The notes below the pieces were generated by a model. It searched no databases. It was not told the DNA's origin and saw nothing but the letters and a program-made list of their open reading frames with translations. A stretch of DNA of 64,000 nucleotides. Source: an uncultured Sphingomonas sp. (GTDB lineage Bacteria > Pseudomonadota > Alphaproteobacteria > Sphingomonadales > Sphingomonadaceae). The position numbers and the translations under genes are program-made. The DNA is taken from positions 124,001 through 188,000 of the forward strand of contig NZ_CALMPA010000045.1 in the NCBI RefSeq assembly GCF_937871615.1, read 5' to 3'. Below are positions 2,662-15,097 of this stretch, piece by piece (position 1 is the first letter of the stretch; each line of letters opens with the position of its first letter).

Positions 2662-2840
2662 TCGCGCGGCTCGCGGCGGGGGTGTCGCTGGCGCTTCTCG
2701 CCGCCTGCTCCTCGCAACCGGCGGCACCCGGCGCGGTTACGCCGGACGAGGAACGACAGTTGAACGAGGCCGCCGCGATGCTCGATGCCAATAGCGTCAG
2801 CGCGGCGGCGGTGATCGACAATGATGAGGACGGGCAATGA
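2658..2840 (+). CDS. Tiny lipoprotein (60 residues), TTG start
   Basis: Read from a TTG that overlaps the preceding stop (TTGA). The product begins MIARLAAGVSLALLAACSSQ, a complete signal peptide with lipobox LAAC (lipid Cys at residue 17). It then has a short Pro/Ala linker and an acidic tail, DEERQLNEAAAMLDAN and IDNDEDGQ. No methionine start exists close by in this frame, and an upstream in-frame extension would lie antiparallel to no known family. The last 4 bp overlap the ATG of the next gene (ATGA), so three genes are chained by overlaps. The lipobox and both overlaps argue that it is real. Function unknown. Confidence 0.7.
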   Translation: MIARLAAGVSLALLAACSSQPAAPGAVTPDEERQLNEAAAMLDANSVSAAAVIDNDEDGQ

Positions 2841-3784
2841 CCAAATGTCGTCTCGGCGCGACCGATCTCGAAATCACGCCGCTGGTGCTGGGCGGCAACG
2901 TGTTCGGCTGGACGGCGGACCGCGCGGCGAGCTTCGCGGTGCTCGATGCGTTCGTCGACGCCGGTGGCACGATGATCGACACGGCGGACGTCTATTCGGC
3001 CTGGGCGCCCGGCCATAAGGGCGGCGAATCCGAAAGCATGATCGGCGAATGGCTGCGCGCCACCGGCAAGCGCGATAGGGTGCTGCTTGCCACCAAGGTC
3101 GGGATGTTGCCCGGTGACGGTGGCGAGAAGCTGGCGCCCGCGCGGATCGCGGCGGCGTGCGACGCGTCTCTCAAGCGGCTCGGCACCGATCGCATCGACC
3201 TTTATTTCGCGCATCAGGATGATGATGCGACGCCGCAGGAAGCAGCGCTGGAGGCGTTCGCGAAGCTGGTCGATGCCGGCAAGGTGCGCGTGCTGGGCGC
3301 CTCGAATTTCCACGCCACGCGGCTAAAATCAGCAAACGATGCGGCCGCGGCGGCCGGGTTTCCGCGCTATCATGTCCTCCAGCCCGAATATAATCTCGTC
3401 AGCCGCCACAGGTTCGAGGGCGAGCTTGAGGATTATTGCATCGAGCATAACGTCGGCGTGGTGCCCTATTACGCCCTCGCCTCGGGCTTCCTCACCGGCA
3501 AATATCGCTCGCGCGACGATCTGGGCAAAAGCGTGCGCGGCGGGCGGATGGGGGATTTGCTGGAGGGCAAGGGGCGCACCATGCTCGATGCACTCGATGC
3601 GGTGGCAGCGGAAACGGGCGCTTCGCTGGCGCAGATCGCGCTTGCGTGGCTGATCGCGCAGCCCGGCGTCACCGCGCCGATCGCAAGTGCCACCAGCACC
3701 GCGCAACTCGCGGAACTGATGCCCGCGACCGAACTGGCGCTGTCAGCCGAGCAGCTCGCCCGCCTCACCGATGCCGGGGCGTGA
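2837..3784 (+). CDS. Aldo/keto reductase
   Basis: A 315-residue cytosolic NADPH-dependent oxidoreductase of the AKR superfamily, of normal length. The catalytic tetrad is visible: D48 and Y53 in MIDTADVYS, K87 in ATKVGM, and H126 in YFAHQDD. The N-terminal LGATDLEITPLVLGGNVFGW is typical of the YajO/Tas-like bacterial branch. The substrate is probably an aldehyde or ketone but cannot be assigned. Its ATG overlaps the stop of the upstream lipoprotein gene, an unusual partnership with no obvious functional link. Confidence 0.9.
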   Translation: MTKCRLGATDLEITPLVLGGNVFGWTADRAASFAVLDAFVDAGGTMIDTADVYSAWAPGHKGGESESMIGEWLRATGKRDRVLLATKVGMLPGDGGEKLAPARIAAACDASLKRLGTDRIDLYFAHQDDDATPQEAALEAFAKLVDAGKVRVLGASNFHATRLKSANDAAAAAGFPRYHVLQPEYNLVSRHRFEGELEDYCIEHNVGVVPYYALASGFLTGKYRSRDDLGKSVRGGRMGDLLEGKGRTMLDALDAVAAETGASLAQIALAWLIAQPGVTAPIASATSTAQLAELMPATELALSAEQLARLTDAGA

Positions 3785-3839
3785 GCGGCTCCCGGCCTGG
3801 TAGCGGAATGGCAACCCCTTCGCGGCTATAGCGCGCATC

Positions 3840-4469
3840 ATGGTCCACCCCTCCTATATCGCGCTTGGTATCGCGACGGTCTGCGCCGCCACCTCGGTGA
3901 CGCTGGCGGCATCGCGCTCGGCAGCGCAACCGATCCTCGTCTCTCGTGAGGTGCCGCCGGTATCGCGCCCGGCGTCGAAGCCCGCGCCGATCAGCGATCC
4001 CGCCGCTTATACCGTAAAGCATATTCTGCCGATCAAAGGCCCGATGCGGATGGGCGATTTCCACTGGGACGAAAGCGCCGCGCCCAAGAGCGGACGGATC
4101 ATCATCACCGTCGATCTCGCCGCGCAGGTCATCAGTATCTTCCGCGACGGCTATGAAATCGGCACGGCCGCCGTCCTCTATGGCGCGGACGCCAAACCCA
4201 CCCCCACCGGCGTCTATCCGATCACGCAGAAGGATGCCGATCACGTATCGAACATCTATAACGCGCCGATGCCCTATATGCTGCGGCTGACCAACGACGG
4301 CATCTCGATCCACGCGAGCGAAGTGCGCGATGGTTATATGACGCACGGCTGCATCGGCGTGCCGGAGCCTTTCGCGAAGAAGCTGTTCAACGCGGTGAAG
4401 CTCGGCGACACGGTCATCGTCACCCATGGCGAGAAGCTGAGCGTCGGCCAGCCGGTGACGGCGGCCTGA
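3840..4469 (+). CDS. L,D-transpeptidase (YkuD domain)
   Basis: A 209-residue exported protein. A signal peptide or membrane anchor covers residues 1-30, then a Pro-rich linker, then a YkuD catalytic domain from about residue 85. The family signature is intact: H158 in ISIHAS, then MTHGCIGVP with H169 and nucleophile C171. Such enzymes crosslink peptidoglycan stems (3-3 links) or attach proteins to them in the periplasm. It is transcribed convergently with the gamma-glutamyltransferase gene and appears monocistronic. Confidence 0.9.
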   Translation: MVHPSYIALGIATVCAATSVTLAASRSAAQPILVSREVPPVSRPASKPAPISDPAAYTVKHILPIKGPMRMGDFHWDESAAPKSGRIIITVDLAAQVISIFRDGYEIGTAAVLYGADAKPTPTGVYPITQKDADHVSNIYNAPMPYMLRLTNDGISIHASEVRDGYMTHGCIGVPEPFAKKLFNAVKLGDTVIVTHGEKLSVGQPVTAA

Positions 4470-4506: not shown

Positions 4507-6228
4507 TCAAAAAGCGATGGCGGCGGCTCCGGGGCGGCGGGGGTCGGCGGCGCCGAGGAACAGGCCGCGATCAATCATGATCGACTGGGCGCTGCCCATG
4601 GTTTCATCCGATATGACCGGATGCCCCATCCGCTCCAGAAGCGCGCGCGTATCGGGATTGAAATTGGGTTCGACGCGCAGATTGTCGTTCGCCGCCTGGA
4701 AGATGCGCGGCTGATGTGTCGCCTCGTCGATGTTGAGACCGAAATCGACGACATCCACCACGATCTGCAACACCGTGTCGATGATCGTGCTGCCGCCCGG
4801 CGAGCCGGTGACGACCCACGGCTTGCCATCCTTGAACAGCATCGTCGGCATCATCGTGGACAACATGCGCTTGCCGGGCGCCATTGCGTTGAGCGGAGCC
4901 GGAGCGCCATCACGCAGCGCCCGCGCGGCGCCGGCGTGATCGAAATTGTTCATCTGGTTGTTGAGCAATATCCCGGTGCCGGCGATCATCACGCCGGAAC
5001 CGAAATCCGCGCCGAGCGTGTAAGTGGTGCTGACCGCATTCCCTTCAGCATCGGCGACCGAGAAGTGCGTGGTCGACGGGCTTTCGAACCGCCACGGATC
5101 GCCGACGCCCAGCATCTTCGCGGGCCGGGCGCGATCAGGATCAATGAGCTTCGCGCGTTCCCGGCCATAAGCTTTCGACACGAACCCGGCCACCGGCGCA
5201 CGCGCGAAAGCCGGATCGCCAAGATAGCGATAGCGATCGGCGTAACCCAGCTTCATCGCCTCCGCCATCACATGAAGCGAGCGCGCGGAGCCGGCCCCTG
5301 CCGATTTCAGATCGAAATTTTCCAGAATATTTAGCATGTTGATAAGCGTGGCGCCCCCGGCGCTCGCGGGCGGGGTCGTCACCACCCTGATCCCGCGATA
5401 CTCGCCCAGCAACGGCGCGCGCTCGATCGGGCGATAGGCGTTCAGGTCATCCAGCGTGATAAGCCCGCCATGCGCTTTCATATCGCTCGCGATGCGTTGC
5501 GCGACCTCACCCTTGTAGAAGCCATCCGCGCCGCGCGCCGCGATCTGGCGCAGCGTCCAGGCGAGATCGGGCAGCTTCATCGTCTCGCCCGCGCGATACA
5601 GGCTGCCATCGGCGCGGTAATATGCGGCACGGGCGGCGGCGCTGGTCGACAGGCGTTGCCTGCCCCAACTGAACACGAATGCTTCATCCGGGGTGAGCGT
5701 GATGCCCTGCTCGGCGAGCGCGATCGCCGGCTTCACCACGTCCGCCCAGGCGAGGCGGCCATATTTGCGCTGCGCGAGATACAGCCCCGCTACCGTTCCC
5801 GGCACCGACGGCGCAAGATATCCCCGGCTCGCAGCGGGCGCCTCCCGCCCCCGATCGTCGATGAACATCGAAAGCTTCGCGCCCTGTGGCGCGACCGAGC
5901 GGAAATCGACCACCACGTCCCTGCCGGTCTTCGCGTCATGGATCAGCATGAACCCGTCGCCGCCGATATTGCCCGCGCGCGGCAGCGTTACCGCGAGCGC
6001 GAAGGCGGTGGCGACCGCCGCATCCACCGCATTGCCACCGCCACGCAGGATCGCCGTGCCGACCTGCGAGGCAGGCGCGCTCTGCGAAACGACCATCCCG
6101 CGCTCTCCCACCACCGGGGAATGGATGCTGGGATATTCGAGCAACTGCTTCTGCTGCGCGCCCAACGGCGTGAGCGCGAGCGCGCCGGCGCCAATGGCCG
6201 CCAGGATGCGGGGCAAGGCTGGCATCAT
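4507..6228 (-). CDS. ggt: Gamma-glutamyltransferase
   Basis: A 573-residue proenzyme with an N-terminal signal peptide (ILAAIGAGALALTPLGAQQ), so periplasmic. It cleaves itself at the conserved TTHFSVAD site (catalytic Thr near residue 386) into two subunits and then removes or transfers gamma-glutamyl groups from peptides. SPGGSTIIDTVLQ is the usual small-subunit oxyanion region. The reading frame stays open far upstream, but the true start is the ATG at 6226-6228: it overlaps the symporter stop (ATGA), follows a GGAA ribosome site and begins the signal peptide. It is the last gene of the putative D-amino-acid salvage operon. Confidence 0.93.
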   Translation of the reverse strand: MMPALPRILAAIGAGALALTPLGAQQKQLLEYPSIHSPVVGERGMVVSQSAPASQVGTAILRGGGNAVDAAVATAFALAVTLPRAGNIGGDGFMLIHDAKTGRDVVVDFRSVAPQGAKLSMFIDDRGREAPAASRGYLAPSVPGTVAGLYLAQRKYGRLAWADVVKPAIALAEQGITLTPDEAFVFSWGRQRLSTSAAARAAYYRADGSLYRAGETMKLPDLAWTLRQIAARGADGFYKGEVAQRIASDMKAHGGLITLDDLNAYRPIERAPLLGEYRGIRVVTTPPASAGGATLINMLNILENFDLKSAGAGSARSLHVMAEAMKLGYADRYRYLGDPAFARAPVAGFVSKAYGRERAKLIDPDRARPAKMLGVGDPWRFESPSTTHFSVADAEGNAVSTTYTLGADFGSGVMIAGTGILLNNQMNNFDHAGAARALRDGAPAPLNAMAPGKRMLSTMMPTMLFKDGKPWVVTGSPGGSTIIDTVLQIVVDVVDFGLNIDEATHQPRIFQAANDNLRVEPNFNPDTRALLERMGHPVISDETMGSAQSIMIDRGLFLGAADPRRPGAAAIAF

Positions 6229-7517
6229 TCGACATTCCTTGAGGCAAACACGGTGAGGTCTATTTGCCGCTCGCTGCGCCCCACAACCGTGGCGACGGCC
6301 AGATCGGCGGTGACATTGGGAATGGTGCGGGTCATATCGAGCAGGCGATCGAACGGCAGGACGAAGCCGACGACCAGCGCGGTCTGCTCCGGCGTGATGC
6401 CGATCGTGGCGAGCACCGCCGCCAGCACGAACAACGAGCCGGAAGGCACCGGCCCCACGCCCATCGCGACCAGCGCGGTGCTGAGCGCGACGGTGACATG
6501 CGCGGCCAGGCCAAGCTCGATCCCGAAGGCCTGGGCAGAGAACATCGCCAGCGCGCCGACGTATAGCGCCGCGCCATCCATGCCGATCACCGCGCCGAGC
6601 GGCAGCACCGTGGAGGCAACCGGCTTGCCGATGCCGAGATTGTCCTCCGCCACGCGCATCGCCACCGGCAGCGCGGCGGAACTGGAGGCAGTGGAGAACC
6701 CCACCATCATCGCATCGGCGATCCCCCGGAAGAACGGCAGCGCCGGCAGCCGCGCCAGCAACCGCACCAGCCCGCCGTGAACCAGCACGGTCTGCACCAG
6801 CGAGCCACCGATCACGCACAGCCCCAGCTTCAGCACCGGCGCGAACACCGCCGCCCCGTTCGCCCCGACCACCACCGCGATCAGCGCGAACACGCCGAAC
6901 GGCGCGACCTCCATCGCGAAGCCGACGATCCGCAGCATCACCTCCGACGCGCCGGACAGCATCTCGCTGAAGACGCGCGCGCGTGGCCCGGCGGCGATCA
7001 CGCCCGCGCCGACCAACAGCGCGAAGAATATCACCGCCAGCGTATCGCCCTCGGCCATCGCCTGCACCGGATTTACCGGGATGATGCCGAGCAGCAGGGC
7101 GAGCGGCTCTTTCGGGGCGGCCACGGTCTTCGCTGCGACCGCCGCGAAGCTTACGCCCGCTCCGGGCTCCAGCAGCGCGCCGAACATCACGCCGACGCAA
7201 GCGGCGATCATCATCAGCAGCGCATAAAGGCCAAGCGTGCGCGCCCCCATCGCCCCGAGCTTTCGCGGATCGCCGAGCGCCGCGACGCCCGAGGCGATCG
7301 TGACGAAAACCAGCGGCACGACGAGCATCCGGATCAGCCGGACGAAGATATCGCCAATCCATTTGACCGCGACCGCCGACTCGCCCGCCCAGAAGCCGAC
7401 GAGCGCGCCGAGCAGCATCGCCGCGAATATCCGCTTCCACAGCGGGATGGCGAACCAGCGCCCGGCAATGCCGCGCGGCATTTCGGCGGGAGTGCTTCCC
7501 TCCGTCACCGGCGGCAA
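6225..7517 (-). CDS. Dicarboxylate/amino acid:cation symporter (DAACS family)
   Basis: A 430-residue inner-membrane protein with about eight transmembrane segments and re-entrant hairpins typical of DctA/GltP. Visible family marks are the serine-rich loop ASSSAALPVA, the MDGAALY motif and the PSGSLFV loop. It imports acidic or neutral amino acids with Na+ or H+. Its start overlaps the end of the deacylase gene by 13 bp and its stop overlaps ggt. The likely job here is importing glutamate or other amino acids released by the periplasmic hydrolases (inference from context). Confidence 0.92.
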   Translation of the reverse strand: MPPVTEGSTPAEMPRGIAGRWFAIPLWKRIFAAMLLGALVGFWAGESAVAVKWIGDIFVRLIRMLVVPLVFVTIASGVAALGDPRKLGAMGARTLGLYALLMMIAACVGVMFGALLEPGAGVSFAAVAAKTVAAPKEPLALLLGIIPVNPVQAMAEGDTLAVIFFALLVGAGVIAAGPRARVFSEMLSGASEVMLRIVGFAMEVAPFGVFALIAVVVGANGAAVFAPVLKLGLCVIGGSLVQTVLVHGGLVRLLARLPALPFFRGIADAMMVGFSTASSSAALPVAMRVAEDNLGIGKPVASTVLPLGAVIGMDGAALYVGALAMFSAQAFGIELGLAAHVTVALSTALVAMGVGPVPSGSLFVLAAVLATIGITPEQTALVVGFVLPFDRLLDMTRTIPNVTADLAVATVVGRSERQIDLTVFASRNVE

Positions 7518-9130
7518 TCCTTCAGCGCGGTGGTATCCTTGCGGACGGCGCGCCCCGCCAGCACGCCGGTGGGATTGCCGTTCTCGATCGCAACGACGCC
7601 GTTGACGATCACCGCGCGGACCCCGGCGGCGAGGCGTTCGGGATGCTCGTAATCGGCGCGCGCGGCAAATTGCCTGCCATCGAACACCGCCACGTCGGCG
7701 AACGCACCGGGTTTCAACAGCCCGCGATCGGTGAGGCCGAACGCCTCGGCGGTCAGCCCGCTCGAACGGCGCACGAACTGCTCCGGCGACAGGCTATGCC
7801 CATCGCGGACGAAGCGCGTCCAGGCGAGGGCGAAGCTGCCGTATTTGCGCGGATGCCCCGCGCTGCCATCGGAACTGGTCATCACCCAGGGCTGGCGCGC
7901 GAACACGTCGATATCCCTGTCCGCCATGTTGAACGAGGCCACCGGCGCGGGATCGCCCGAAACGAGGATGCGGATCGCCGCATCGACCGGATCAATTCTC
8001 CAATCGGCGGCGATCGCGTCCAATCGCTTCCCGGCGTGCGCGCCGCCGGTCAGAAGCAACGCGCCCGCCCCGCCGCGCCGGCGCAGATTGTCGGCCATTT
8101 CGCGCTTCAGGCGCGGGGTCAGCGCCGGATCCGCCAGGCGCTTGCGCATCGCGGCGATCCCGCCGTCATGCGCCCAGCGCGGCACCAGCGCGGCGGAAAG
8201 GCGCGTGCCCGATGCGGACCACGGATATTGATCCGCCGTCACCGCTTGCCCCGCCGCGCGCGCGCGCTCCACCTGGGCGACGATTTCGCCCGCCTTTCCC
8301 TGCACGTCGACGCCGAGCGCCTTGATGTGCGCGATATGAACCGGCATCCCCGCCTCGCGGCCGATGCGCAATGCCTCGTCCACCGCAGCGCCGACCCCGA
8401 TCGTCTCGGAGCCTTCGTCGCGCATATGGGTATCATAAACCCCGCCACGCGCCGCCGCCTCACGCGCGAGCGCGATCACCTCTCCGGTCTTGGCAAAGCT
8501 TTGCGGCGCATAATAAAGCCCGGTCGAAAACCCCACCGCGCCCTCGCACATCGCACCCGCGACCAGTGCCCGCATCCGTTCCGTTTCAGCCGGCGTCGGC
8601 GCGCGATCATCCCGCCCAACCACCTGCGAGCGCACCGCGCCAAAGCCGACGAAGCGCGCGATGTTCACCCCGGCCCCGGCTTCGCTCATCCGCGCGAACC
8701 GCGCCGATATCGCGGGATCGCCATCGCCGTCATTGCCGACCATGATCGTCGTTACGCCCTGCGCAAGCTGGTTGAGCGCGAGGCGCCGCGTGCGATCGGG
8801 AGAGGCGATATCGGCGTCCTCGTGGGTGTGCGGATCAATGAAACCGGGGGTGACCAGCATCCCCGTCGCGTCGATCACCCGCCGCGCGGTCCGCCGCAGC
8901 GCGCCGCCATCGCCGATGAAGACGATCCGGTCGCCGCGCACCCCGATGTCCGCGCGGCGTGCGGGCGCGCCCGTGCCGTCGATCACCGTGCCGCCCGCGA
9001 TGAGGATATCAACCGGCGATGGCGCGGGTGCTCGCCCGGAGGCGGCATTCGTCGGGATCGCGACGGCGGCGATCGCGCACATCAATGTCCCGCGGCGCAA
9101 GAAGACGGCGCCGTATCCGATCCCGATCAT
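7505..9130 (-). CDS. N-acyl-D-amino-acid deacylase (D-aminoacylase, amidohydrolase superfamily)
   Basis: A 541-residue amidohydrolase. The N-terminus (LRRGTLMCAIAAVAI) looks like an export signal, possibly Tat-like, so the enzyme is probably periplasmic. DILIAGGTVIDGTGAPA and GFIDPHTHEDAD (metal ligands HTHED) identify the D-aminoacylase/dihydroorotase-like group. DTHMRDEG and HIAHIKALG supply further ligands. These enzymes release D-amino acids from N-acylated forms. It sits between a D-amino-acid dehydrogenase gene (4-bp overlap) and a symporter gene, which supports D-specificity. The exact substrate is unknown. Confidence 0.88.
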   Translation of the reverse strand: MIGIGYGAVFLRRGTLMCAIAAVAIPTNAASGRAPAPSPVDILIAGGTVIDGTGAPARRADIGVRGDRIVFIGDGGALRRTARRVIDATGMLVTPGFIDPHTHEDADIASPDRTRRLALNQLAQGVTTIMVGNDGDGDPAISARFARMSEAGAGVNIARFVGFGAVRSQVVGRDDRAPTPAETERMRALVAGAMCEGAVGFSTGLYYAPQSFAKTGEVIALAREAAARGGVYDTHMRDEGSETIGVGAAVDEALRIGREAGMPVHIAHIKALGVDVQGKAGEIVAQVERARAAGQAVTADQYPWSASGTRLSAALVPRWAHDGGIAAMRKRLADPALTPRLKREMADNLRRRGGAGALLLTGGAHAGKRLDAIAADWRIDPVDAAIRILVSGDPAPVASFNMADRDIDVFARQPWVMTSSDGSAGHPRKYGSFALAWTRFVRDGHSLSPEQFVRRSSGLTAEAFGLTDRGLLKPGAFADVAVFDGRQFAARADYEHPERLAAGVRAVIVNGVVAIENGNPTGVLAGRAVRKDTTALKDCRR

Positions 9131-10395
9131 CTATCCTCCCCCAATATCATTCGCGCGACACGTTCGGCGGAGCCCATCGCGAATGTCCAGCCCAACATGC
9201 CATGCCCGACGTTCAGGCTGATCCGCGATCGCGCCCGCCGTATGATCGGCAGCGACGATGGCGTCACCGGACGAAGGCCGGCCCAGCCGCCATGCGCCGC
9301 ATCATAATTCGCGGCATCGGGCAAAACAGCGCGTGATGACCCGCGAAGCTGATCGAGCCTTCGCGCATCAATCGTCGTATCATGCACGCCAAGCTCCGCC
9401 AGCCCGGCGACGCGCAGCTTCGTCCCCAATCGGCAGAAGACGATCTTTCGCACGACATCGGTGATGCTCACCTTCGGCATCGCGGCGCCGGCGGGCGCGG
9501 TGAAGGAATATCCCTTCATCGGCAGGATCGGCGCGCTGATCCCGGTGCCGCGCAGCAGACGCATGGTATCAATGCCGGTGCACAACACGATCTCATCCGC
9601 CTCGATCCGCTCGCCCTCCGCACAGATCGCGACCGCCCGGTCAGCCGTGCCGTCGATCGCGGCAACATTCGTTTCAAGGCGGATGTCCACCGCGTAATCG
9701 CGTCGCAGCACAGCCAGCATCGCGTTGCAGAACAGATAGGGGTCTCCCACCTCCTCATCCGGCGTGTAGATCGCGCCGGCGAACGCCCCGCGCCGCGCCG
9801 CGAGCGCCGGCTCGATCGCAACCACCTCCGCGCGCGTCAGGCAGTGCTGGATCGCGCCGTGACCGCCCTTCAACTCGGCCATCGCCCGAGCAGCGGCAAG
9901 GGAGGCCGGATGCTCGTGGATATGCAACTTTCCCGGCGCGGCATGGTCGAACGCGATCGGATGGCGTTCGAGCAGCGAATGCAGCGCCCGGCGGGATTCC
10001 AGACCGAGCCGCAGGCCTTCGATCGTATTGCTCCTGAACCGCGTGGATGAAGCGTTGCGCAGAAAGCCAAGCAGCCATCCGAAAAACGCCGGATCGACCG
10101 AGGGACGCAAGCGGAATACGGGATCAAGACCGATCAACAGCGCGGGAATGCGCTTCAGCAACGCCGGATTGGCGAGCGCATCGGTATAGACATAGCTGAG
10201 CTGCGCGCCATTCGCGTAAGACGTGCCGCGCCCCGCCGTCTCCGCCCGGTCGATCAATATGACTTTCGCGCCGCGCCGCGCCAAAGCGTAAGCGGTGGCG
10301 ACCCCGACGACCCCTGCGCCGATCACGATGATCGAACGTGCGCGCATTCGCGCTGGACCCGCCGACACGGCGCGATCCGCTTCTGTCAGGATCAT
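9127..10395 (-). CDS. D-amino acid dehydrogenase (DadA-like FAD oxidoreductase)
   Basis: A 422-residue flavoprotein. IIVIGAGVVGVATAYALARR near residue 22 is the FAD-binding Rossmann motif. MKGYSFT, GLRPVTPSSLPI and NVGHGMLGWTFAMGSA are signature stretches of the DadA family. It oxidises D-amino acids to 2-imino acids at the inner membrane, passing electrons to quinones. The given ATG (10393-10395) could be replaced by an internal ATG at 10347, just before the Rossmann strand. It is the first gene of the four-gene operon, 101 bp downstream of the LysR gene, with a T-N11-A dyad in that gap. Its imino product is the substrate type for the RidA protein encoded at 14726. Confidence 0.88.
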   Translation of the reverse strand: MILTEADRAVSAGPARMRARSIIVIGAGVVGVATAYALARRGAKVILIDRAETAGRGTSYANGAQLSYVYTDALANPALLKRIPALLIGLDPVFRLRPSVDPAFFGWLLGFLRNASSTRFRSNTIEGLRLGLESRRALHSLLERHPIAFDHAAPGKLHIHEHPASLAAARAMAELKGGHGAIQHCLTRAEVVAIEPALAARRGAFAGAIYTPDEEVGDPYLFCNAMLAVLRRDYAVDIRLETNVAAIDGTADRAVAICAEGERIEADEIVLCTGIDTMRLLRGTGISAPILPMKGYSFTAPAGAAMPKVSITDVVRKIVFCRLGTKLRVAGLAELGVHDTTIDARRLDQLRGSSRAVLPDAANYDAAHGGWAGLRPVTPSSLPIIRRARSRISLNVGHGMLGWTFAMGSAERVARMILGEDR

Positions 10396-10483
10396 ATACC
10401 CCTCTACCGGCCCCTTATCGCCGGCATCCTACAAAAGGCCGTGGGCCGGGCAAGGCGGAGCAGCCAAGCAATTTGGACCGACT

Positions 10484-10502
10484 CCATAACCAAAGGCTAT
10501 TG
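10484..10502 (-). promoter_or_regulatory. LysR-type operator, site 3 (upstream of the DadA operon)
   Basis: Read on the minus strand this is CAATAGCCTTTGGTTATGG, a T-N11-A dyad. It matches sites 1 and 2 in the receptor/ridA intergenic region at 14 or more of 19 positions. It lies about 90 bp before the dehydrogenase start and overlaps the last codons of the LysR gene. A LysR activator site there is the natural reading. Confidence 0.65.
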
Positions 10503-11402
10503 CGCCTCGGGCCGATGATCCTTCTTCGCGATTTCGCTGGAGACCGTGGCGACGAAACGCTCCGCAAGCGCCGATAGCGGGCGATCCTCAAGCCAGGCGA
10601 CCTGAACGCCGAAGCGCAGCCTCGGCTCCAGCCCGTGGATATCAACGTCGCTCGATCGGATCGCGCTAGCGGTGAATTCGTCGACCAGCGCGACGCCGCA
10701 GCCAAAACGCGCCAGTGCCGCCGCGATATAATAGGTGCCGACGGACACGACCTCGCGCACCGAGATGCCGGCGCGATCGAACGCCGCCGCCGCGATATCG
10801 CCGACCGGGCCGCTTGCCGCGACGCCGACGAGATCGTGCCGTTCCAGCTCCGACAGCGGCACGCGCTCCCGCTCGCTATCGAAGGTGCCCTGCGGCGAAA
10901 CCAGCAGCAATTCGGCGGTGGTGAGCCGGCGCGTCGCCATTCGCGGGTGCGCGGGCGGATCATATCCGATCGCAAGATCGCACTCGCGCTCATACAATGC
11001 CTGAATCATGTCATGATGATGCAGCGTCTGGATATCGAACGTCACCTCGGGATGAAGCGCGCGAAACGCCGATACAGCGCGCGGCGCCACCTCCAGCCCA
11101 AGTGACGGAACCACCCCCAGCCGAAGATGCCCGGCGCCGGAGCCGCGCAGATTGCGCGCGGTCTGCCGCAATGACGAGATGCGATGGAAAACCTCGTCGA
11201 CTTCGCGAAACAGCGCGTGCGCCTCGTCGGTCGGCACTAGGCGGCCGCGCACCAACGTGAACAGCGTGATACCGAGTTGATCCTCGGTATGGCGTAGCAC
11301 CTTGCTGACCGACGGCTGCGAGACGTTGAGCGCCCGCGCCGCCGCGCTGATCGAACCATTGGAATAGACGGCGTGGAAAATCTCGATCTGGCGAAGGCGC
11401 AT
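10497..11402 (-). CDS. LysR-family transcriptional regulator of the D-amino-acid locus
   Basis: A 301-residue regulator of standard LysR length. Residues 1-60 form the winged helix (SISAAARALNVSQPSVSKVL), and the rest is a type 2 periplasmic-binding-like effector domain. It lies between the TonB-dependent receptor gene and the dehydrogenase operon, all on the same strand. Three copies of a T-N11-A dyad occur at the two promoter regions flanking this set, so it probably controls both. The effector is unknown; a D-amino acid or imino acid would fit. Confidence 0.92.
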   Translation of the reverse strand: MRLRQIEIFHAVYSNGSISAAARALNVSQPSVSKVLRHTEDQLGITLFTLVRGRLVPTDEAHALFREVDEVFHRISSLRQTARNLRGSGAGHLRLGVVPSLGLEVAPRAVSAFRALHPEVTFDIQTLHHHDMIQALYERECDLAIGYDPPAHPRMATRRLTTAELLLVSPQGTFDSERERVPLSELERHDLVGVAASGPVGDIAAAAFDRAGISVREVVSVGTYYIAAALARFGCGVALVDEFTASAIRSSDVDIHGLEPRLRFGVQVAWLEDRPLSALAERFVATVSSEIAKKDHRPEAQ

Positions 11403-11451
11403 CGCGCGATACTAGCCGGGCCAGCGCCAACGACAAGCAGGCCCGATCGGC

Positions 11452-11486
11452 CAGCGGTTGTCCGGGGTGCGCCCGAACAACCGCTG
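11452..11486 (-). terminator. Strong stem-loop after the TonB-dependent receptor gene
   Basis: CAGCGGTTGT pairs perfectly with ACAACCGCTG, and an inner CGGG/CCCG extends the helix past one mismatch. It starts 6 bp after the receptor stop. There is no T-run, so it may be a 3'-end stabiliser or an attenuator before the LysR gene rather than a full intrinsic terminator. Confidence 0.5.
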
Positions 11487-11491
11487 CGCGA

Positions 11492-14400
11492 TCAGAACGT
11501 CTTGGCGATCTCGGTGTAGATCAGGCGCCCCGTCGCATTGTGCAGCGATCCAAGGAAGCCGTAGTTCGAGGAATAAAGCGGCGGATCCTTGTCGAACAGA
11601 TTACGTGCGCCGACGCGGAAACGAAGCCCGCTCAACCGGCTTTCCTTCCCGAACTGATACTGGGCGTAGAGGTTCACTGTCGTCCAGCTTGGCACCTTGT
11701 AGAACTTGCCGTCGATCAGCGCCGGGCCGGTATCGAACACCGGGCCGACATAGCTCACCAGCAGCCCCGCGCTCATGCCGTTCAGGCGCCAGGTGACGTT
11801 CGCGGATCCGCGCCATTCGGGATTGCCGTTCTGCATGATCTGATCGCCAGCGGCGGTGATCGCGATATTCGGGCCGAGCTTCCCCGCCTGGTTCGCGGCG
11901 ATCAGCTTGGCCTGCATGTCGGATGCTTCCTGATTGAGCTTCAGGAGCTTGGCCGCGGCCAGATCAATGTTGAACGTGCCCAGCGCGGTGCGACCGGAAT
12001 TATAGCTGATCTCGAAATCCAGCCCCTTGATGAGGCGCGGCCCGAGATTGAAATAATCATCCTGCACATAGGATAGATCGCCCACGGCCTGCCCCGCCGC
12101 CGCGGGCAGGCGAACGACATTCGGATTGCTGCCCCCGCTCTGCCGCAACAGATAATCGTACAGGATCTGATTTTGCGCGCCCTGGATGCCGATCACGCCC
12201 TTTTCGTAGATCGACCAGTAATCCGCCGTCATCGTCAGGCCCGGCACGAACCGCGGCTGGAGCACGATCCCCGCCGAGAAATTCTCCGCGTTTTCCGGCT
12301 GGAGCCGCTGATTGCCCGATCGGATTTCCAGCGTGCTGACGCCGCTGCACGTCGTCCCGTTCAGGCGACAGAAGGCATAATCTGTGCGCGTGTTCGAAAC
12401 CTGCGTGCCCGAGCTGTAGAATTGCGGCAGGTTCGGCGCGCGGAAGCTTTGCGACCAGGAACCGCGCAATTTGATACCCGGCACGACCGTCCAGCCGGCA
12501 GCCACCTTCGGCTTGAAGACATTGCCGAAATCCGAATAACGCTCGTCGCGCGCGGCAAGCTGGAAATCCAGCGACCGCATCAGCGGCACGTTCATTTCCT
12601 CCGAGACGACCGGCACCGCGAGTTCGACGAACGCGGAAGCGACAACGCGATGCGCCTTCACGTCGGGCGACGCGCTCGCCCCGAGAACGTCGGAATTATA
12701 CGTCGTGCCCGTTACCATATCGGTATAGGTGTTGGTTCCATCGAGGCGCGGATCGCGATTGTCCTCATAGGTTTCACGCCGCACCTCAAGCCCGGCGGCG
12801 AAGCCCAGATCGCCCCCCGGCAGCGCCAGCAGTTGCGCGTTCGAAAGCTTGAAATCCCAGGTCGCCAGCGAGGTTTTGCTGATCCGGCGAACCTCGACCT
12901 GGAATGAGCGGATCGTTGCCGGATCGTTCGGCGTCGCATCGCCGAGCGAATAGTTCGGCTGGCTGCCGCCGTTGAACGGATTGTAGGCATCGGGCGTGGC
13001 GCGCGCCAGCGCCTGCTGGAACAGCGTGTTGCTGATGGCATTGTGCGTATTGTCGTCGGTGCGCGCGAAGGCGTAGCTCACCGCCGAATCCCAGCGGAAC
13101 GCGCCCCAGGAGCCACGCAGCCCCATCAACCCGCGTACCATATCATCGGTCACGGTATAGGTGCGCGGCCCGGCATCCACCGGGCGATAATTCGTCAGGC
13201 GCAGCGCAAGGCCGCCGGCGGGCACCCCGGTCAGGCCCGGAAGGCGATTGGGATTGGCGGCGCCATTGATCGTCAGCGCGCCGAACGGGTTCCAGTAATT
13301 GCTCGCCGGGATGCTGATCGGCGCGCTCGATACCGGCGCGGACTGTTCGCGCTGCCCATCCAGAACCGCATGATAATATGCCAGTTCGGTGAACAGCTCC
13401 GCCTCGCCGATGTCCTGTCGGAAGGTCGTGAAAAGGTTATAGCGATTGAGCTGGCCGCGGATCGTGCGATCCGGGTTCTCGTCATAGCGCAGCGGGCGGT
13501 CCGCCGCGCCGGTAATGCCGCCGCTGCGCAGGCAGAGATTGTTGTTATAGGTGGTGCTGGAACAGCCGGCGCCGGTGTTCGAGACCGGCTCGACATGGAA
13601 CACCCCCGATGAGGTGAGCGCGGTGCCGTTCTGGCGCACCACGGTGGACGACGGGATCACCGTGAAGGAGCCCCATGGCGACGAGGTGGAGCGATTGTCG
13701 AACGCGGTATCCCCTTCATACGGGGTGCCCACCAGCATCCCGCGGTGATCCTCGCTCGCCGATATCGCGCGATCGCGGGCGAACAGCGGCGCGCGATCGG
13801 TGTAGCTGCCGAAAATCATGAAACGACCGCCGCCCTTGGTGCGGGTGCCCGCCTTGAGCGCGATGGTCTTTTCGTCGGTATCGTCGGCAAAGCCATAGCG
13901 GGCATCGAGCCGAACCCCGTCGAACTTGTCGTCGAGCACCACGTTGACCACGCCGGCGACCGCATCCGAGCCATAAATCGCGCCCGCGCCATCGCGCAGC
14001 ACCTCCAGCCGGCGGATCGCGCCGACCGGGAAGGAATTGATGTTCACCGTCTGGACCGGAACGAAATTCTCGGTCTGCGTCCCCGGCGTCGGCACCATGC
14101 GGCGGCCGTTCAAGAGGACGAGCGTGTTGCCGGTGCCCACGCTGCGCAAATTGATTGAGGCGTTATCGCCGCGCGCGTCGTTCAGGTTGCCGGTGGTGCG
14201 GGCCTCCTGGAAGTTCACGTCGCCGGCCTGCGGGATCGAACGGAACAGATCATCCCCGGAAATCGCGCCGGTCGCCGCGATCCGGTCTTCACCTAGAACG
14301 GTGACGGGCAGCGCCTCGCTTTGCCGCGCGCCTTCGATCTGGCTGCCGACGACCACGATATCCGGCCCGGCGCTTTCCGGGCTTCCGGCATCGGCCTGGG

Positions 14401-14494
14401 TTGCTTGCTGAACAGGCATCGCCGCGCTCGCGGCGGCGGCAAAAATGGACACGCTGGCAAATAGCGCCACGCGCGCCGACGCAGAAAAAGTCAT
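11492..14494 (-). CDS. TonB-dependent outer-membrane receptor
   Basis: A 1000-residue receptor. It has a signal peptide (SVSIFAAAASAAM) at residues 1-30, then a plug domain with PVTVLGEDRI and NASINLRSVGTGNTLVLLNG, then DGAGAIYGSDAVAGVVN, and a long beta-barrel ending in a C-terminal phenylalanine (EIAKTF). The frame is open further upstream, but the ATG at 14492-14494 follows a GGGGGG ribosome site and begins the signal peptide. Such receptors use TonB energy to import bulky substrates. Context with gamma-glutamyltransferase and D-aminoacylase genes suggests peptides or acylated amino acids, not iron (inference). Confidence 0.92.
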   Translation of the reverse strand: MTFSASARVALFASVSIFAAAASAAMPVQQATQADAGSPESAGPDIVVVGSQIEGARQSEALPVTVLGEDRIAATGAISGDDLFRSIPQAGDVNFQEARTTGNLNDARGDNASINLRSVGTGNTLVLLNGRRMVPTPGTQTENFVPVQTVNINSFPVGAIRRLEVLRDGAGAIYGSDAVAGVVNVVLDDKFDGVRLDARYGFADDTDEKTIALKAGTRTKGGGRFMIFGSYTDRAPLFARDRAISASEDHRGMLVGTPYEGDTAFDNRSTSSPWGSFTVIPSSTVVRQNGTALTSSGVFHVEPVSNTGAGCSSTTYNNNLCLRSGGITGAADRPLRYDENPDRTIRGQLNRYNLFTTFRQDIGEAELFTELAYYHAVLDGQREQSAPVSSAPISIPASNYWNPFGALTINGAANPNRLPGLTGVPAGGLALRLTNYRPVDAGPRTYTVTDDMVRGLMGLRGSWGAFRWDSAVSYAFARTDDNTHNAISNTLFQQALARATPDAYNPFNGGSQPNYSLGDATPNDPATIRSFQVEVRRISKTSLATWDFKLSNAQLLALPGGDLGFAAGLEVRRETYEDNRDPRLDGTNTYTDMVTGTTYNSDVLGASASPDVKAHRVVASAFVELAVPVVSEEMNVPLMRSLDFQLAARDERYSDFGNVFKPKVAAGWTVVPGIKLRGSWSQSFRAPNLPQFYSSGTQVSNTRTDYAFCRLNGTTCSGVSTLEIRSGNQRLQPENAENFSAGIVLQPRFVPGLTMTADYWSIYEKGVIGIQGAQNQILYDYLLRQSGGSNPNVVRLPAAAGQAVGDLSYVQDDYFNLGPRLIKGLDFEISYNSGRTALGTFNIDLAAAKLLKLNQEASDMQAKLIAANQAGKLGPNIAITAAGDQIMQNGNPEWRGSANVTWRLNGMSAGLLVSYVGPVFDTGPALIDGKFYKVPSWTTVNLYAQYQFGKESRLSGLRFRVGARNLFDKDPPLYSSNYGFLGSLHNATGRLIYTEIAKTF

Positions 14495-14587
14495 GGCAAT
14501 CCCCCCGGTTGCGATTTTGCTGCCCGAGGTTAGCCGCGTGGCGATACGCAAGCCAAGACACAGCAGCGATATCAAGACATCGCCGAT

Positions 14588-14606
14588 CCATAGCCTATCG
14601 TTATGG
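14588..14606. promoter_or_regulatory. LysR-type operator, site 1
   Basis: CCATAGCCTATCGTTATGG is a T-N11-A dyad with outer arms CCATA/TATGG, in the 231-bp divergent gap between the receptor and ridA genes. It shares the core ATAGCCTnnnGyTATG with sites 2 and 3. Confidence 0.65.
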
Positions 14607-14645
14607 GTCACCCCACCTCTCCAGCCTTTCCGACGCCCGGACAAG

Positions 14646-14664
14646 CCATAGCCTGATGCTATGA
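14646..14664. promoter_or_regulatory. LysR-type operator, site 2
   Basis: CCATAGCCTGATGCTATGA holds a perfect 6-bp inverted repeat, CATAGC/GCTATG, with a 5-nt spacer. Its centre is 58 bp from that of site 1. Tandem sites at this distance are common for LysR tetramers acting at divergent promoters. Confidence 0.65.
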
Positions 14665-14725
14665 CGCCAAACCATTTCGCGAGCTTGCCCGCCGCGAACG
14701 CCGGGCCGACAATGGGCCTTCCGCC

Positions 14726-15097
14726 ATGGAGATGAATGTGACGAAGCCGAACGCGCGACCACCCCTTGCCCCATTCCGTGAAACCGCCGCCGGGTTGATC
14801 TTCGTTTCCGGGCAACTTCCCCGCGGCGCCGATGGCGGCATCGTCCCCGGCGGAATCGAGGCGCAGGCCCGTCGGGCACTGGAGAATCTGTCGGGCGTGC
14901 TCGATAGCGCGGGCGCATCATTGAGCGACGTGGTCAAGACGACCGTGTGGATCACCGATCCGGCGGCGATGGCGCAATTCAATGCGATTTACGAAACCTT
15001 TTTCAGCGCGCCCTATCCGGCGCGCTCGACCGTCGTTTCGGGGCTGGTCGCGCCGGATGCGCTGCTGGAGATCGAAGCGGTGGCGGTGCGCGCCTAG
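14726..15097 (+). CDS. RidA-family enamine/imine deaminase
   Basis: A 123-residue cytosolic protein of the YjgF/YER057c/UK114 family. It carries the family pattern FVSGQLP near the N-terminus, QARRALENLSGVLDSAG in the middle and PARSTVV near the end. RidA proteins hydrolyse reactive 2-imino acids to 2-oxo acids and ammonia. It is divergent from the receptor gene and shares its regulatory region, and the neighbouring DadA-like enzyme makes imino acids, so it probably completes that pathway. A second in-frame ATG at 14732 is possible. The conserved arginine in PARS is present, as in active members. Confidence 0.88.
   Translation: MEMNVTKPNARPPLAPFRETAAGLIFVSGQLPRGADGGIVPGGIEAQARRALENLSGVLDSAGASLSDVVKTTVWITDPAAMAQFNAIYETFFSAPYPARSTVVSGLVAPDALLEIEAVAVRA

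Follow-up and report, generated by a model that had tools for sequence, protein, structure and literature searches.

The stretch considered here (the window) comprises 64,000 nt of contig NZ_CALMPA010000045.1 from an uncultured Sphingomonas species; coordinates without a prefix are window positions, and L and G numbers denote stretches and genomes used for comparison. At 4507-15097 the window encodes seven genes that together resemble an accessory salvage operon for D-glutamate or another acidic D-amino acid. They specify a TonB-dependent receptor (TBDR), a LysR-type regulator, a DadA-like dehydrogenase, a deacylase of the D-aminoacylase family (DEAC), an SDF/DAACS symporter, a gamma-glutamyltransferase homologue (GGT1) and a RidA-family protein. 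This gene list had been given in a first-pass annotation made from the letters alone, and it is confirmed by a Pfam search of the window proteins, in which all seven exceed the cut-offs: GGT 561 bits, SDF symporter (PF00375) 333, amidohydrolase 86, DAO (PF01266) 196, LysR (PF00126 and PF03466) 135 and 65, TonB barrel and plug (PF00593 and PF07715) 107 and 49, and RidA (PF01042) 99.

Apart from RidA, all are encoded by minus-strand genes, arranged as TBDR (11492..14494, 1000 aa, the start being taken as the ATG at 14494), LysR (10497..11402, 301 aa), DadA (9127..10395, 422 aa), DEAC (7505..9130, 541 aa), symporter (6225..7517, 430 aa) and GGT1 (4507..6228, 573 aa). The TBDR and LysR genes are separated by 89 bp, and LysR and DadA by 101 bp. 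From there on the genes overlap: DadA and the deacylase by 4 bp, the deacylase and the symporter, which has a TTG start, by 13 bp, and the stop of the symporter and the start codon of GGT1 by 4 bp. The earlier description of the four enzyme and transport genes as one co-directional operon with overlaps of 4 to 13 bp is thus borne out by measurement. A 977-aa open reading frame with a GTG start was rejected as the GGT, and the start was placed at 6228. The RidA gene (14726..15097, plus strand, 123 aa) is divergent from the TBDR gene, and the 231 bp between them (14495..14725), to judge by the spacing, probably contain a promoter and a LysR site. A scan for the sigma-70 consensus found no promoter in this region; the promoter and terminator scan as a whole gave hits at shuffle level and is uninformative.

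The dehydrogenase is placed among the FAD-dependent D-amino-acid dehydrogenases by its matches to PF01266, PRK00711 and PRK12409 and by an alignment of its subfamily. The RidA-family protein, aligned with E. coli YjgF/RidA (1qu9), keeps Arg105, the arginine of its PARS motif (PTRS in L092), the number being obtained by counting along the E. coli sequence. The same type of RidA, also with Arg105, is found in L055, L092, L103, L120 and L222. This residue is reported to predict imine deaminase activity in Rid proteins (PMC5619798). The annotation as an imine hydrolase is supported to this extent, but RidA is not a fixed member of the locus: it is linked in only one of nine relatives from the genus, and thus appears to be an optional helper. 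Four more Rid matches, spread over three other sites, occur in the genome itself.

DEAC scores 241 bits against D-aminoacylase (1rjp) and 220 bits against N-acyl-D-glutamate deacylase (3gip); naming its substrate from these scores alone was abandoned, since the two values do not discriminate. It keeps H67, H69, H220, H250, K252, Y283 and D366, characteristic residues of D-aminoacylase, in which Cys96 is a metal ligand. An aspartate at position 96 and a short loop after Asp366 are found in the window protein and in every DEAC row of at least 45% identity; Cys96 is present in 1m7j and in nine more distant homologues. Many DEAC relatives have, by eye, N-termini resembling signal peptides or lipoboxes. 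DEAC probably belongs to an exported subfamily of the D-aminoacylase family, and its annotation as an N-acyl-D-amino-acid deacylase stands as regards family and apparent export, with the reservation that Asp replaces Cys96. In L053 (6169-10901) there are three tandem DEAC paralogues, one of which has a different type of active site (Ser in the Cys96 region).

The pathway in which the locus might act is best approached through its sister loci. Forty stretches anchored on deacylase homologues were compared, 36 from the best-ranked other genomes and four picked from the tail at 35-41% identity. Many encode DgcN and DgcA, proteins of a route for D-glutamate that is described in PMC12363236 and PMC10845958 (original paper: Yu et al. 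2023 ISME J). These proteins were named by NCBIfam on one representative each, that of DgcA scoring 442 bits (cut-off 400). DgcN is found in 24 stretches, DgcA in 24, at least one of the two in 25 and DadA in seven; no stretch has both routes, and eight have neither. The lack of overlap has a hypergeometric P of 3.5e-4, for loci that are not independent. LysR is encoded in 28 of the 40 stretches and SDF in 22, and they accompany either route (LysR in 21/25 and SDF in 15/25 of the stretches with DgcN or DgcA; 6/7 and 5/7, respectively, of those with DadA). DadA, with or without RidA, occupies the position that is held by DgcN-DgcA in most sister deacylase loci. A strict replacement at the level of whole genomes was rejected, since the present genome has both: DgcN and DgcA have no match in the window and are present at C22 of the same genome. 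An S13 (DacB-like) peptidase is encoded in 17 of the 40 stretches (L031, L034, L037 and L041 among them), 15 of these with DgcN or DgcA, which hints at wall peptides.

The regulator belongs to a LysR family that is found beside DgcN-DgcA. Of 20 other LysR matches in the same genome, the closest adjoins DgcN-DgcA, with 233 bits versus 66 for the next. In a maximum-likelihood tree, from which matches with fewer than 230 aligned positions were excluded, a single 38-row clade (100/97) takes 15 of the 18 LysR rows from DadA loci and 21 of the 22 from Dgc loci. L143, L159 and L169 join at the next fork (99/92), and the weak LysR match of L032 and the genome's own paralogue L200 fall outside.

The symporter, whose closest PDB chain is an aspartate transporter (9bgz, 302 bits), keeps the equivalents of Asp394 and Arg397 of GltPh, where these residues bind the amino group and the side-chain carboxylate. 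Both are kept in 33 of 36 SDF rows, that of the window included, and three DctA-like rows have Ser394. For the SDF, GGT and DEAC alignments, matches with stops, exact duplicates and matches below the length limits were excluded; the SDF rows L073 and L092 are one G004 gene. The exchange with DgcN-DgcA, the family of the regulator and the residues kept by the symporter make D-glutamate (or D-aspartate or D-glutamine) the likely amino acid; on balance the substrate would be D-glutamate or another acidic D-amino acid. The earlier D-amino-acid reading holds and can be narrowed in this way.

GGT1 is a homologue of the Ntn hydrolase family of gamma-glutamyltransferases (TIGR00066, 537 bits; cut-off 358). 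Compared with E. coli GGT, it keeps the nucleophile Thr386, Arg114, Ser462 and the oxyanion glycines, and has Asn411 changed to Gly, Asp433 to Asn and Ser463 to Thr. The canonical alpha-amino pocket (Asn411/Asp433) is therefore replaced by Gly and Asn, as in every GGT1 relative scored: in 7/7 GGT1 proteins (the window and six relatives), all of which keep Arg114 and the nucleophile, and in 5/5 scored at the genus loci, where two of the genomes had already been counted and three were new. Asp433 is kept in the second GGTs of L092, L120 and L123 and in GGTs closer to that of E. coli; the distant homologues L146 and L167 have Ala and Trp at this position. The GGTs with Asn433 could not be accepted as a single clade: nine of ten group together (84/100), and L073 stands beside L074 and L075 with weak support. 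This tree left out L223 and L226 (copies of L125 and L123), and the scoring at the genus loci excluded the GGT fragments of L230 and the 412-aa second GGT match of L227.

Contact with the alpha-amino group is reported for the residue at the Asp433 position. The D433N variant of E. coli GGT has no transpeptidation activity, retains almost 82% of its hydrolysis and gains glutaryl-7-aminocephalosporanic acid acylase activity; class IV cephalosporin acylases carry asparagine at this position, and D- as well as L-glutamine is accepted as a donor by E. coli and Bacillus GGTs (PMC8062742). Because its alpha-amino pocket is rebuilt, GGT1 may be a hydrolase for gamma-glutamyl groups with a substituted or D-configured alpha-amino group. 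Its N-terminus resembles a signal peptide by eye. The first-pass annotation was right about the family and the apparent export of this protein, but GGT1 is not a canonical gamma-glutamyltransferase.

Other GGTs near this TBDR family are more divergent. Those of L074 and L075, beside the same TBDR family, have also lost Arg114. TBDR-GGT pairs occur in G083 (L093:6071-10733) and G045 (L094:5852-10703), with GGTs in which Arg114 is replaced by Tyr and residue 433 is Asn; these are perhaps not gamma-glutamyl enzymes in the usual sense. In G047 (L091:2930-10882), a GGT1 (67%) has a peptide ABC transporter of the OppABCDF type as its neighbour, and the stretch gave no DadA match.

The distribution of the locus was examined in a family sample of 199 genomes (this genome and 198 others) and a genus sample of 120 other genomes. 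In the family sample, the DadA subfamily (E < 1e-99, 43-58% identity; next match 38%) is present in nine of the 198 other genomes, and in seven of these DEAC is in the same stretch. In G175, DEAC is about 12 kb from DadA, which lies outside stretch L066. In G004, DadA is accompanied by LysR, TBDR, SDF, GGT, RidA and a second GGT, and DEAC was not found in the fetched stretch. The genus sample has the DadA subfamily in 9/120 genomes, and the stretches around these nine genes contain a GGT homologue in 9/9, SDF in 8/9, LysR in 8/9, TBDR in 7/9, DEAC in 6/9 and RidA in 1/9. Four of the nine (L226, L227, L228 and L230) have the order LysR-DadA-TBDR-DEAC-SDF-GGT1-GGT2, that is, all six operon genes and a second GGT homologue. 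The broken GGT frames in L230 (16487-19869) and the split TBDR frame in L123/L226 (L123:11254-14363) could reflect either decay or assembly error.

Among named genomes, the best 80 of 583 DadA relatives were scanned, and a TBDR together with DEAC or GGT was found near DadA in ten of these 80. L118 (a Sphingomonadaceae metagenome-assembled genome, MAG) and L125 (another MAG) have TBDR-LysR-DadA-GGT at 53-76%; further members of the ten are L120 (Sphingopyxis MAG), L123 (Sphingomonas sp. 32-66-10) and L119 (Altericroceibacterium indicum). L123 and L226, and likewise L125 and L223, were taken as the same records, and L119 looks like the G032 locus again. In L127 and L130 (Erythrobacteraceae), L143 (Woeseiaceae), and L159 and L169 (Hellea), an M14 peptidase is present and no GGT match; this M14 partner has six weak PDB matches (33-46 bits), to CCP5 and to M14 carboxypeptidases from bacteria. 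The TBDR family recurs in relatives beside DadA and DEAC, beside DadA and GGT, or beside GGT alone.

The locus is more than a chance adjacency, and the gene set is accessory and patchy, being linked among close relatives only. In the comparison across sphingomonads that had been proposed at the outset, the set recurs linked in close relatives and is not simply conserved as scattered genes. The claim that the pathway is complete is too strong, since several relatives have further genes, whether for a second GGT homologue (L222, L226, L227, L228, L230, L092 and L120), for an M14 peptidase or for a protein resembling D-aminopeptidase.

These features are best read as an accessory salvage operon for D-glutamate, or for acidic D-amino acids, with a probability of about 0.6. 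The TBDR would carry peptides or conjugates bearing D-glutamate across the outer membrane. In the periplasm, the exported amidohydrolase DEAC would free the D-amino acid of an acyl or aminoacyl group, and the GGT variant, judging by its rebuilt pocket, might cut gamma-glutamyl bonds with a substituted or D-configured alpha-amino group. Free D-glutamate would be imported by the SDF symporter, whose residues support an acidic amino acid, and converted to the imino acid by the DadA-like flavoenzyme. Rid proteins speed the hydrolysis of imino acids to the 2-oxo acid and ammonia, so that RidA would here hasten the formation of 2-oxoglutarate and ammonia. The LysR protein, to judge by its kin, would sense D-glutamate or a derivative. 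This scheme is drawn from the genes present and their linkage, from the exchange with DgcN-DgcA, from the kin of the regulator and from residues of the active sites; activity, substrate, chirality, localisation and expression are all predicted.

Several observations weigh against a D-glutamate operon. Firstly, some assignments fall short of NCBIfam cut-offs: the DadA-like protein (PRK00711, 331 bits versus 383; PRK12409 also below), DEAC, in which the metal ligand Cys96 is exchanged (best PRK09061, 167 bits versus 340), and, by a little, the DgcN representative (458 bits versus 480). Secondly, the NMDGT motif of the symporter is altered to GMDGA, and L122 and L124, DadA relatives at 50-53%, have a DctA-like SDF with Ser394 nearby, which argues against a single substrate for the whole DadA subfamily. 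Thirdly, GGT1 is absent in L224, L225 and L229, and DEAC in L222, L223 and L225, so neither hydrolase is obligatory; RidA is rarely linked; and 70 of the 80 DadA relatives from named genomes, most of them at less than 45% identity, are without the context of a TBDR and a deacylase or GGT. Finally, eight of the 40 deacylase loci have neither route, and the genome itself holds a separate DgcN-DgcA-LysR set (L114:7804-10754, G000 C22; 49%, 56% and 41% to the queries). In this genome DadA is therefore an addition and not the sole route, and two D-glutamate routes may coexist. Of the nine other family genomes with DadA, DgcA is above its cut-off in G004 and G139, just below it in G169 and G108, and unmatched in the other five.

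Another explanation, which can be held only tentatively, is that the operon serves the TonB-dependent utilisation of polymers or peptides with gamma-linked D-glutamate (poly-gamma-glutamate or peptidoglycan stem peptides), and is for amino acids what a polysaccharide utilisation locus is for sugars. The natural role of GGT1 would then be to hydrolyse gamma-glutamyl bonds internally or at N-substituted groups, together, in relatives, with a GGT2 of canonical type or with an M14 peptidase resembling deglutamylases. A protein of the PGA_cap family (capsule or poly-gamma-glutamate synthesis) is encoded near DadA in L036 (13326-15389), L045, L061 and L120; as support for poly-gamma-glutamate, these neighbours and the M14 partner are suggestive only. 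In one experiment, Sphingomonas was among the genera with the most operational taxonomic units enriched by poly-gamma-glutamate; in another, two units of this genus were reduced (PMC11937826).

It is doubtful that the locus serves D-amino-acid salvage in general, freeing neutral D-amino acids for broad oxidation by DadA. Possible sources are, for example, gamma-glutamyl-D-alanine or plant N-acyl-D-amino acids; the DadA family at large is broad, and D-aminoacylase kin take several N-acyl-D-amino acids. DEAC looks exported, and the related DadAs of L122 and L124 are paired with another type of SDF. However, the window symporter keeps the acidic-substrate pair Asp394/Arg397, and the LysR, SDF and DEAC set is common to the DgcN-DgcA loci of an acidic D-amino-acid pathway.

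Scavenging of peptides or glutathione with L-glutamate as the product, in which GGT1 would act on ordinary gamma-L-glutamyl peptides and the D-amino-acid enzymes would serve some other purpose, is unlikely. The GGT1 of G047 beside its peptide transporter and the canonical pockets of second GGTs in relatives are consistent with this view, but DadA and GGT share one operon in the window, a GGT homologue is near DadA in all nine genus relatives, and the amino pocket of GGT1 differs from that of E. coli GGT. It is also unlikely that GGT1 and DEAC hydrolyse the amide bonds of glutaryl-like, xenobiotic or other acyl conjugates, like class IV cephalosporin acylases, as the effect of the Asp433 to Asn change in E. 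coli GGT (PMC8062742) and the loss of Arg114 in L074/L075 might suggest, since the linkage to DadA, to a LysR of the Dgc-locus family and to a symporter with acidic-amino-acid residues would be left unexplained.

Next to the seven genes, YifB and YidC are encoded at one end and an aldo-keto reductase and an L,D-transpeptidase at the opposite end. The YkuD L,D-transpeptidase (2837-4469) is convergent with the end of GGT1 across a gap of 37 bp, and has no match in the stretches from relatives. The aldo-keto reductase beside it recurs at 69-71% in L225 and L229, perhaps as a common insertion neighbourhood.

If the salvage of D-glutamate is the true function, sphingomonads own a route from the outer membrane to the cytoplasm for D-glutamate that is bound in poly-gamma-glutamate, in the peptides of the wall or in acylated form. 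Such a role would also provide a natural function for GGTs with a pocket of the cephalosporin-acylase type, and would tie an exported D-aminoacylase branch and its LysR regulators to D-glutamate. The exchange of DadA (with RidA) and DgcN-DgcA under related regulators makes the substrate assignment directly testable.

Two known D-glutamate systems are close to the locus. The dguRABC genes of Pseudomonas aeruginosa (He et al. 2014) belong to D-glutamate catabolism. They comprise a LysR regulator, a dehydrogenase and a Rid protein, and the dehydrogenase, Rid and LysR proteins of the window would work in a similar way. The dguRABC locus is not known to include a TonB receptor, an exported deacylase, a GGT or an SDF symporter, as the window does. 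The window RidA is also far (32 bits) from PA5083 (DguB). PA5083 is assigned to the Rid2 group and is reported to have imine deaminase activity (PMC5619798), and DguR is described as the regulator of the dguA promoter in D-glutamate catabolism (PMC10926688). The deacylase loci with DgcN-DgcA share the LysR family (21/25) and the SDF family (15/25) with the window, but have an N-acetyltransferase and a racemase (the N-acetyl-D-glutamate route) instead of DadA and RidA.

Other resemblances are partial. GGT1 shares Asn433 with class IV cephalosporin acylases and with E. coli GGT D433N, and keeps Arg114 and the Thr nucleophile as in GGT (PMC8062742); it differs in the additional changes Asn411 to Gly and Ser463 to Thr and in its natural catabolic operon. 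The ong cluster for oxidised chitin, in which OngB (predicted to be cytoplasmic) acts on GlcNAc1A, likewise brings together a RidA protein, transporters and an enzyme of the D-aminoacylase family, but has a MurR/RpiR regulator, the OngC deaminase and a sugar kinase, and the eight genes listed in the account consulted do not include DadA or GGT (PMC9537276). In the gamma proteobacterium NOR5-3, a TonB-dependent transporter adjoins a D-aminoacylase gene; the text concerning this pair describes it alone and mentions no dehydrogenase, symporter or GGT (PMC3400609). The earlier impression that the set is undescribed as one system is correct insofar as specific wordings retrieved no description of the whole set from open-licence full text, whereas its parts (dguRABC, the DgcN-DgcA modules and the transporter/D-aminoacylase pair) are known. 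The locus is filed as a variant of the known D-glutamate catabolic loci, dguRABC and DgcN-DgcA, in which catabolism would be joined to uptake across the outer membrane and release in the periplasm; its enzymes are known and their combination is new.

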